Assembly (NCBI RefSeq): GCF_019704555.1
Contig: NZ_AP024745.1
Span: 2,786,001-2,850,000, forward strand
DNA length: 64,000 bases
DNA from: Actinoplanes sp. L3-i22
Lineage (GTDB): Bacteria; Actinomycetota; Actinomycetes; Mycobacteriales; Micromonosporaceae
Reading direction: 5' to 3'
The notes beneath the pieces are model-generated. The model had not been told where the DNA came from. It worked only from the letters and a program-made list of their open reading frames with translations, and did not search any database. Shown one piece after another: positions 16,527 through 63,149 of this stretch. Within the stretch, counting starts at the first letter, position 1; every line of letters begins with the position of its first letter. The position numbers and the translations under genes were made by a program.

Positions 16527-16853
16527 CCGGGCCCAGCCACCTCGCCCGCCGGCCGGCCCGCGACCCGCACCGCGGTCAGGCACGTGCCGCGCTCGCCGGC
16601 CGGGACCGGGCGGCGCGGCTGGGCCTTGAGCCGGCGGGCGGCTCGCGTGGGTCCTTTGAAACCGCGACCACCCACGGACATCGCCCTTGCGGGTCTCGTG
16701 TTCTGGGCGCCCCGCGCCCTTGCGAGACCCGGAAGGGTCCCCGCGGGAGCGGCGATCAGTTATCGGCCGCAGCGTAGGCAACAAAGATCTTGATCTTGGT
16801 CTTGATCTGGATTCTTTTCGGCACGATCCCCATCCCCTACGGAAGGATTCACC
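16527..16853. other. intergenic region between VTC and DUF4353 genes
   Basis: 327 bp without a convincing gene. The first half is very GC-rich with no clear signal. The second half holds copy A of the dispersed structured element (16668-16798), followed by a T/A-richer stretch and the RBS GGAAGGA just before the 16854 start. Confidence 0.8.
16668..16798 (+). repeat. dispersed structured intergenic element, copy A
   Basis: About 131 bp sharing long blocks with copies at 40333 and 62971. Order: CACCC-x-CGGAC box; CCCTT (16684-16688) pairing with AAGGG (16733-16737); GGGTCTCG (16691-16698) pairing with CGAGACCC (16723-16730); inner helix GGGCGC (16705-16710)/GCGCCC (16714-16719); then the invariant GGGTCCCCGCGGGAGCG; and a tail AGTTAT-x-GGCCGCAGCGTAGG. 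I recognise no known RNA or transposon family. It lies 56 bp before the DUF4353 start. Confidence 0.85.
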
Positions 16854-40210: not shown

Positions 40211-40332
40211 CGGTGCGGTCTCCGTTTCCGTTCCGGTCCAGGGACGGCCGCATCATCGGGCCCCGCGCGCCCACCTTTAGAGAAGTCCGCGGTGACGAGC
40301 ACGACGCCCTGGGGTTTTTCGGTAAACCGCAA

Positions 40333-40455
40333 CCACCCTCGGACGTCGCCCTTGCGGGGTCTCGCGTTCTTGGCGCCCTGGCGCCCTGCGAGACCCCGGA
40401 AGGGTCCCCGCGGGAGCGACGATCTGCACCCCAGCGGACATAGGCAATAAAAAGC
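40333..40455 (+). repeat. dispersed structured intergenic element, copy B
   Basis: Shares with copies A and C the CCACCCTCGGACGTCGCCCTT opening, the outer stem CCCTT/AAGGG, a ten-pair stem GGGGTCTCGC/GCGAGACCCC (two pairs longer than in A), the inner GGCGC/GCGCC helix, and GGAAGGGTCCCCGCGGGAGC. Its 3' tail diverges (CTGCACCCCAGCGGACATAGG) but keeps TAGG-x-AA. It lies between the stop of the ABC permease and the start of the DUF2510 gene, both on the minus strand. Confidence 0.85.
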
Positions 40456-40457
40456 CT

Positions 40458-41233
40458 TTAAACAGATTTTTGGTACGCGCGGAACGTGCGCGTCGAGAGC
40501 ACCACCATCACTCCCGCCAGGAGCAGCAGCCATCCGCCGCGACTGGCGACCACGCCCCAGTCCGGGGTGTCCCGCATGGCCGCGCGGGCGGCGTCGAGGG
40601 TCCAGTTCACCGGGTTGAAGTCGGCGATCCGGCGCATCCAGGACGGCATCAGCGTCGACGCCATGAACGCGGACGACAGGAACGTCAGCGGGAGCAGCAG
40701 CAACGTGTTGATCCCGATGATCGTCTCGCGCTGCCGGACCAGCATGCCGACGGTGTTCGACAGCGCGCTGAAGATCGTGCCGAGCAGCAGCGCGGAGACC
40801 ATCAGCACGAGCAGGCCGAGCGCGCCGCCCGGGTACGCCGCCCCGGCGGCCAGCCCGAGCAGGATGATCGCCGCCACCTGCACGGCGGTCGACAGCGCCT
40901 GTTCGAGCACCATCGCGTTCATGATCGCCCCGCGCGCGACCGGCGTGGTGAGCAGCCGGTTCATCGTGCCGCGCTCGATCTCATCGAGGACGCCCATGCC
41001 GGACCACATGTTCGACGACACCGCGGTCATCGCGACGACGCCCGGGACGATGTAGTCCAGGTAGTCGCCGCCGCCGAAGCCGGGGATCTCGACGACCTTG
41101 CGGAACAGGTGCCGAACAGGAACAGCCAGATGGCCGGCTGGATCAGCATGATGACGATGAACGCGGGCTGCTTGACCAGCACTTTCAGCCGCCGGGCGGT
41201 CATCCACCAGGTGTGTGCGACAAGGGTTGTCAT
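40458..41233 (-). pseudogene. ABC-2 permease (DrrB-like), frameshifted
   Basis: The N-terminus (MTTLVAHTWWMTARRLKVLV, QPAIWLFLFG; start 41233) and the rest (LFRKVVEIPGFGGGDYLDYI onward to the stop at 40458) are in different frames. They would join as FG-x-HLFRKVV if one base were restored near 41108-41112. The span of 776 nt is one short of 259 codons, exactly a one-base deletion. Otherwise it is an intact ABC-2 membrane domain: six helices, the conserved EIERGTMNRLLTTPVARGAI loop, and FMASTLMPSWMRRIADFNPVNW. The ATP-binding partner overlaps its start (ATGA). Either a recent mutation or a sequence error. Confidence 0.85.
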
Positions 41234-62697: not shown

Positions 62698-63149
62698 GCC
62701 GGCTCGGCGTGGCTCGCCTGCAAAGCGTGACCCGCCTGCTTAGCGTGACGCGGCTGCTCAGCGTTGCTGTTGCTGGCCGCCCGGCGCGGCCGGGCCGGGG
62801 ACGATCACGGCGGTGCGGCCGCGGGCAGGGGCCCACCCTCCGGGGGCCCCCATCCCTCGAGATCACCGTATCGAAGATGGTCATGATCGTGTCGGTGGCC
62901 TGTGGATAACCCTCTGGTGTGGACAACCGGCTCGGCGGGCTCGCCCGGGGTTAGGATTTTTGGACCGTGCCCACCCTCGGACGTCGCCCTTTCGGCGCTC
63001 GCGTTCTGGGCGCGCCAGCGCCCTGCGAGGGTCGGAAGGGTCCCCGCGGGAGCGACGATCAGTTATTGGCCGCAGCGTAGGAAATGAAGTTCTTGATCTT
63101 TATGAGGAGGGCGCCCGGCCGACATTCATCAGTCAGGCGCCCGCCCGGG
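62645..63149. other. convergent intergenic region after the LacI gene
   Basis: 505 bp between the stops of the LacI gene (+) and the hydrolase gene (-). It holds the 17-bp repeat, degenerate AGCGTGAC-type direct repeats (about 62710-62765), a hairpin GGGGCCC/GGGCCCC (62828-62834/62844-62850) that may terminate lacI transcription, and copy C of the dispersed element (62971-63100). No convincing gene. Confidence 0.75.
62971..63100 (+). repeat. dispersed structured intergenic element, copy C
   Basis: Same order of blocks as copies A and B: CCACCCTCGGACGTCGCCCT, outer CCCTT/AAGGG, middle stem GGCGCTCG/CGAGGGTC (7 of 8 pairs kept, one pair switched C-G for G-C), inner GGGCGC/GCGCCC, GGAAGGGTCCCCGCGGGAGC, and the A-like tail AGTTATTGGCCGCAGCGTAGG with TTCTTGATCTT. 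It lies between convergent stops. Confidence 0.85.

Follow-up and report, generated by a model that had tools for sequence, protein, structure and literature searches.

The window, a stretch of 64,000 nt from Actinoplanes sp. L3-i22, carries three copies (A, B and C) of a structured element, all on the plus strand. Copy A (16661-16802, covering model positions 1-141; 139.2 bits with covariance model R1, also found with nhmmer) lies between same-strand genes for a VTC-domain protein and a Cthe_2159 protein, and is a long form preceded on the plus strand by an optional 5' module at 16595-16657 (2.1e-12 with the module HMM). Its hairpin I, composed of a variable stem and a conserved inner stem-loop, occupies 16685-16736 and its hairpin II (TCCC-CGC-GGGA) 16738-16748; the TTGATCTT-type 3' tail spans 16786-16802, with similar sequence continuing to about 16808. 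Copy B (40326-40469; 126.4 bits with R1) is antisense between two minus-strand genes, with hairpin I at 40350-40403 and hairpin II at 40405-40415; its 3' end reaches the stop codon of the gene 40458-41207 for an ABC-2 permease, and the match overruns that codon (40458-40460, minus strand). Copy C (62964-63105; 143.9 bits with R1) is flanked by convergent genes encoding a LacI-type regulator and a PepX_C protein, its 3' end being about 45 nt from the end of the PepX_C gene (63150). The 5' arm of its outer stem is at 62977-62987, pairing with 63052-63063, and the outer half of this stem is weakly supported; hairpin I, which holds a compensatory change, is at 62988-63039 and hairpin II at 63041-63051. 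In all three copies the hairpins were delimited by folding and covariation.

The first-pass annotation had placed three plus-strand copies here, and they are present where it put them, with model boundaries slightly wider than its own; the sequence blocks it listed as common are found in A, B and C, and the 21-mer core GGAAGGGTCCCCGCGGGAGCG (up to 3 mismatches) has 3 matches in the window against 0.04 expected. The nested fold it described is borne out by plus-strand fold z-scores of -3.99, -3.73 and -2.30 for A, B and C (minus strand -3.31, -2.43 and -0.62), and the longer middle stem of copy B reappears in the minimum-energy folds, with 12 pairs against 10 in A. Copy C does have one G-C pair turned into C-G and another into G-U, beside an adjacent G.G mismatch that went unmentioned. 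The statement that every copy is 3' of a gene needs correcting, as the contexts of A, B and C differ. That no known RNA family is involved holds for Rfam, which gave no match in the window at gathering score and, over eight loci at E values up to 1, five weak matches, none on an element; no Rfam group II intron was found in the window or the eight loci.

Anatomy and folding strand

The element is about 142 nt long and reaches about 205 nt with the optional 5' module. Its anatomy was taken from an alignment of 52 copies from several species (A2/A3), out of 80 references; 20 of 101 pattern places had been left out of the first alignment, 13 because they were judged by eye to be chance matches and 7 because their upstream block was missing. 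Hairpin I consists of a variable stem of nine pairs and the conserved inner stem-loop CTGGrCGC-GCCA-GCGsCC, and hairpin II of TCCC-sGC-GGGA, the four pairs of which are invariant in the 52 sequences of A3. An outer stem, CGGAC-GTCGC / GCGAC-GATCTG, can enclose both hairpins; it was added by hand, as RNAalifold alone did not predict it, and its inner half is well supported while in the outer half, which is weakly supported, one pair cannot form in 20 sequences and a second cannot in 9, out of a 35-sequence set (A5, comprising 29 of 30 covariance-model loci, L148 being excluded for its Ns, and six others). The outer stem is followed by a 3' tail rich in TTGATCTT or TTGAAGTTGATCTT, and tails hold between zero and three TTGA[T/A] units.

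The structure of 34 pairs was compared with shuffles that retain the relatedness among the copies. Cells are paired in 92.9% of cases against 87.4% when shuffled; both partners vary in 13 of the 34 pairs (mean of the shuffles 9.3, with 6 of 500 as high), and the cells changed on both sides number 81 against a shuffled mean of 20.5, a value reached in none of 500 shuffles. Slid controls pair much less (40.6-45.7%). The earlier proposal of a structured element with a compensatory change is thus supported by an excess of covarying pairs. The nine-pair stem of hairpin I contains 43 G·T cells and no A·C cells, and with all pairs counted there are 105 G·T against 13 A·C (63 against 19 in the 35-sequence set); this excess indicates that it is the plus strand that folds, which applies to RNA and single-stranded DNA alike. 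Selection acts on the plus strand to fold into two hairpins enclosed by an outer stem, with a TTGATCTT-type tail behind them.

The ends of the element were compared in 864 kb of the window's genome (G000), made up of the window and 40 further stretches that were chosen for holding copies. All 57 copies in this sample are full length, one further match being a chance hit of 9.9 bits, and no copy is interrupted within the core. The 5' flanks share sequence in 237 of 1596 copy pairs, the 3' flanks in 2 of 1596. The extra 5' module is carried by 24 of the 57 copies; in the 864 kb, 24 of its 25 matches are directly upstream of an element and the remaining one is 66 nt away. Shared flanks and the optional module together point to an element with a fixed 3' end and a variable 5' extent. 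The module was also considered as an independent repeat or target, and this was rejected, there being no match apart from elements in the 864 kb with a model built from those same flanks. An excess of terminal inverted repeats was not seen between the 35-nt ends of the short form in the 57 copies (best ungapped match of mean length 11.44, shuffled 11.92). The tail motif, considered in its turn as an independent repeat, occurs 33 times in elements and 35 times elsewhere, 11 of the latter being intergenic according to the home-made gene calls and partly beside elements; no second hairpin family was seen at the tail motif sites.

Several further sequences were observed around the copies. Directly upstream of several elements (window 62850-62950; flanks of L116, L134, L113 and L103) there is a recurring segment that contains DnaA-box-like words, CCTGTGGATAACC...GTGTGGATAAC. 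A palindrome, CGGCTGGCGCTCA...TGAGnGCCAGCCG, stands ahead of the 5' module in the long-form loci L119, L126, L136, L137 and L138, and may be a separate repeat. The variants L145:1271-1410 and L158:1352-1475 have element-like ends with a different middle, the region L111:9485-9807 features a tandem unit combining the first ~30 nt of the element with another body, and at L137:17540-17640 in the window's genome three tandem units of ~32 bp with GATCCTAGG follow the tail of one element.

Copy number and distribution

The genome of the window is a single contig of 12,014,766 bases, in which the 21-mer core (up to 3 mismatches) has 99 and 97 matches on the two strands (196 in total), with 0 and 1 for the reversed control. 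In the same genus, 57 of 67 genomes bear the element by covariance model at E<=0.001, 50 of them at E<1e-10; among the best 10 candidates per genome, every match listed spans model positions 1-141. A second model, applied to 39 chosen genomes at E<=1e-5, gives at least 83 copies in G000, G242 and G216, 82 in G035, 69 in G014, 65 in G010, 45 in G022 and 24-39 in G003, G011, G032, G033, G244 and G279; three genomes have 13-15 copies and the other bearers 10 or fewer, down to two in G221, one each in G025 and G257, and none in 9 of the 39. G277 has no match with the first model and one at 4.5e-8 with the second, and G031 has long runs of N at some of its copies. Partial copies in other species account for 8 of 84 matches; four are at N runs, three are complete but for the first 12 model positions and one is a variant.

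Among named genomes, 39 stretches match a longer pattern exactly, and they come from just three species, Actinoplanes palleronii, A. cyaneus and A. liguriensis, in a scan that may omit records very near the window's genome. Outside the genus, 17 of 17 genomes from seven other genera of the family match at E<=0.01, with up to 25 matches per genome and a best value of 4.9e-11; these genomes were picked for weak matches, and the individual distant matches are weak. The motif GCGGGAGC is present in 27 of 28 out-of-genus sequences, TGGCAG in 16, and TTGATC close to the end likewise in 16; 27 of the 28 fall short of 141 nt. The exact core pattern has no match in a phylum sample of 395 other genomes, in which the same family is represented by a single genome, and no match to copy C was found in plasmid and phage collections; two pattern matches in viral contigs were rejected, neither being an element by the model. 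A limited literature search found no title on this repeat family, by which its absence from print is not established.

Copies of this number bear on the proposal that the element is a small-RNA gene family acting in trans. Strong covariation, conserved loops and a single folding strand are in its favour; however, there are about 200 similar copies, at which number a conventional small-RNA gene is unlikely, the location is tied to gene ends, and no promoter-like site was seen at the three window copies in a scan that has low power in GC-rich DNA. A trans-acting small-RNA family is considered very improbable.

Of the first 100 exact copies listed out of the 196, the interval 0.2-3.8 Mb contains 75 and the interval 4-5 Mb none. 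The same 100 display no strand bias per Mb, which argues against a fork-dependent insertion of single-stranded DNA.

Placement at gene ends and occupancy of shared gaps

Gene contexts of the 57 copies in the 864 kb were assigned with a home-made gene caller. Between convergent genes there are 38 copies; those with tandem neighbours are antisense in 12 cases and sense in 4 (p=0.077), 3 are between divergent genes, and none is wholly inside a called gene. The 3' end of the element faces the 3' end of a gene in 50 of the 57, at a distance of 20 nt or less in 26. In convergent gaps, which leave the element free to lie either way round, the 3' end of the element is the nearer end in 29 of 38 (p=0.0017), with median distances of 16 and 171.5 nt; three gaps hold head-to-head pairs (six copies), each with its 3' end towards its own gene, and with these two-copy gaps set aside the 3' end is nearer in 23 of 32 (p=0.020). 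In other species the polarity agrees in 17 of 21 copies with gene ends flanking both sides, a set that includes duplicate loci and up to two loci from the window's genome. The 3' end of the element abuts the 3' end of a gene running towards it.

The main rival to a mobile element starts from this placement: a functional 3'-end element would be transcribed from its upstream side and would fold, stopping or processing the RNA before it runs antisense into the facing gene, the copies being old, selected and homogenised within each genome by gene conversion. The predominance of convergent gaps and facing gene ends in the sample, the plus strand as folding strand, the filling of the same gaps in several species and the complete lack of decayed copies (0 of 57) are in line with it. 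In Actinoplanes sp. SE50/110 many stable GC-rich secondary structures are described as having obstructed sequencing (PMC3364876); these may or may not be copies of the element. Against a functional element stand the 15 of 57 copies that have an opposite-strand gene upstream, the large spread of copy number in the genus with its empty gaps, the optional 5' modules, and the fact that one and the same gap has different junctions in different species. A U-tract terminator pattern is likewise missing at the three window copies: intrinsic terminators (a GC hairpin with a T run) number 0 in the three regions, where 0.1-0.4 are expected by chance, so that the scan has little power. Of the terminator or 3'-UTR function raised by the first-pass annotation, the U-tract was thus not seen at this low power, and a role at 3' ends or as a transcription barrier stays a live rival. 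Overall the functional reading is considered possible, if on the doubtful side.

The gap orthologous to that of copy B holds an equally oriented copy in G242, in G031 (partly Ns) and in G014 (3' part only, at a contig end), and is empty in G216, G022, G010, G035 and G221. Of 14 distinct gaps of the window's genome that could be compared starting from copies in other species, 11 are occupied on both sides of the comparison (p=0.0015 against a rough occupancy of 36%); this is a hand count with biased sampling, the 36% derives from fetched regions enriched in copies, and a further gap (L083 to L133), whose flank match is short, would be another occupied one. In a less biased direction, seven copies of the window's genome with syntenic flanks in G216 correspond to three occupied gaps, one of them with a divergent copy of 41.5 bits, and four empty ones.

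Copies in the same gap are 0.63-0.80 identical over 18 pairs; mean identities are 0.69-0.73 between species and 0.80-0.85 within a genome. In 15 of the 18 pairs the median identity to paralogs in the window's genome exceeds the same-gap identity, and on average the foreign copy is matched more closely by 27 of 56 other copies from that genome than by the same-gap copy. For most of the 12 compared gaps the junction offset varies from species to species; these gaps and the 18 pairs were hand-picked, and one pair (L065) is cut by Ns. Exact junctions and target-site duplications are not legible, as the orthologous gaps are too diverged. Same-gap copies being no closer than random inter-species pairs, it appears that positions persist or recur while the sequences are replaced, and both recurrent insertion at favoured gaps and gene conversion of old copies fit the data. 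The puzzle which this family poses is what sets the 3' end of a repeat at stop codons, homogenises the copies within a genome and preserves or re-establishes their positions across species; the covariance models and the pairs of empty and filled gaps are a means of approaching it.

Widely varying copy number in the genus and empty gaps favour mobility; shared gaps and the lack of decayed copies are more readily explained by a functional than by a selfish element. The explanation put forward as best, tentatively and at somewhat below even confidence, is a non-autonomous mobile element. Such an element would be copied through a folded single-stranded intermediate, either RNA or ssDNA, with the conserved loops probably serving for recognition; a trans-acting enzyme would insert it tail-first where transcription units end, and favoured gene gaps would be hit again or overwritten, producing shared positions with species-specific sequences.

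Candidate movers and comparison with known systems

No trans-acting enzyme was found among the Y1, IS110 and RT candidates. The REP/RAYT possibility raised in the first-pass annotation is contradicted by the lack of a Y1_Tnp in the genome and by a different anatomy: PF01797 (Y1_Tnp) has no match in the window's genome at E<=0.001, with 5 of 14 control genomes positive. IS110 was rejected as mover, the bearer G279 having no PF01548 match. Intergenic, palindromic copies in high number and the three head-to-head double gaps would be accounted for by a REP-type palindrome under a RAYT (Y1 tyrosine) transposase, or by a MITE derived from IS110 or IS200-605; with the missing Y1_Tnp, the bearer without IS110, ends that have no excess complementarity, and an element far larger than a REP and branched, such an origin is considered highly improbable. 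In the window's genome three IS110 matches and the RT-like gene were observed at 6.59-6.82 Mb.

A search for reverse transcriptases (RTs) matched in 16 of 25 genomes, and in G010 and G022 not at all. Retron-like RTs (PADLOC RT_other and RT_outgroup) are present in 28 of 57 bearers of the element and in 0 of 10 non-bearers; with phylogeny left in, Fisher's test gives p=0.0037, 0.008 when G277 is taken as a bearer, and 0.024 when only elements at E<1e-10 are counted. For one such gene, L218:4307-5824 in G216, 26 of 27 other matches are 57-83% identical and one is 36% identical. This association, together with the fixed 3' end, the variable 5' extent and the tail of zero to three units, is what a SINE-like retroelement would feature, its RNA being reverse-transcribed and inserted by an RT in trans to give a constant 3' end, a repeated tail and a 5' end of variable extent. 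In Nannocystis exedens dispersed msDNA-like repeats are known for which reverse transcription has been proposed, and their repetition is discussed as retrotransposition in titles cited by PMC6868368. However, retron-like RTs are absent from 29 of the 57 bearers, including the window's genome, where the core has its 196 matches, and the copy-rich G242 and G014, both of which have other RT-family genes. The single RT-like gene of the window's genome (L215:6296-7300, minus strand, at ~6.756 Mb) has FADN where YxDD is expected; no element lies beside an RT in 12 RT loci searched to 1.5 kb on either side, 12 longer stretches yield two weak matches (19.8 and 15.4 bits), and no copy is cut within the core. 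A SINE-like retroelement is considered unlikely. A fuller version, to which only a slim chance is given, would be a bacterial counterpart of SINEs, in which a structured non-coding RNA is turned back into DNA that integrates tail-first where transcription units end, overwriting older copies at those sites and possibly once driven by the retron-like RT seen in element-bearing species only.

The preferred reading of a non-autonomous element placed in trans can be set beside several known systems. REPs are imperfect hairpins of 20-40 nt. The element resembles REP/BIME sequences with their RAYTs in having hundreds of intergenic folded copies, some in inverted pairs; it differs in being 142 nt long, branched, tailed and polar at gene ends, in a genome with no Y1 transposase. 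Group IIC introns insert directionally at terminators, and directional insertion at the ends of transcription units would be common to both; the folded strand of the element is, however, antisense to the gene it contacts. The msDNA-like repeats of Nannocystis are likewise dispersed and structured (PMC6868368), whereas no RT linkage was found for the element and the RT-like gene of the window's genome is degenerate. ERIC/RU, YPAL, Correia and similar small mobile sequences are described as MITE-like (PMC2229807, PMC2267715); in the available text of these sources they share with the element its size class, intergenic location, structure and uneven copy number, while the element has no excess of terminal inverted repeats and belongs to a Micromonosporaceae lineage. 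As with MITE- and ERIC-like sequences, the element is non-coding, intergenic, present in many copies and variably present or absent among relatives. It is a real structured repeat family without an Rfam entry, most like the small dispersed intergenic repeats, and it adds a large and clearly structured repeat family to the Micromonosporaceae, a bacterial family of industrial interest.
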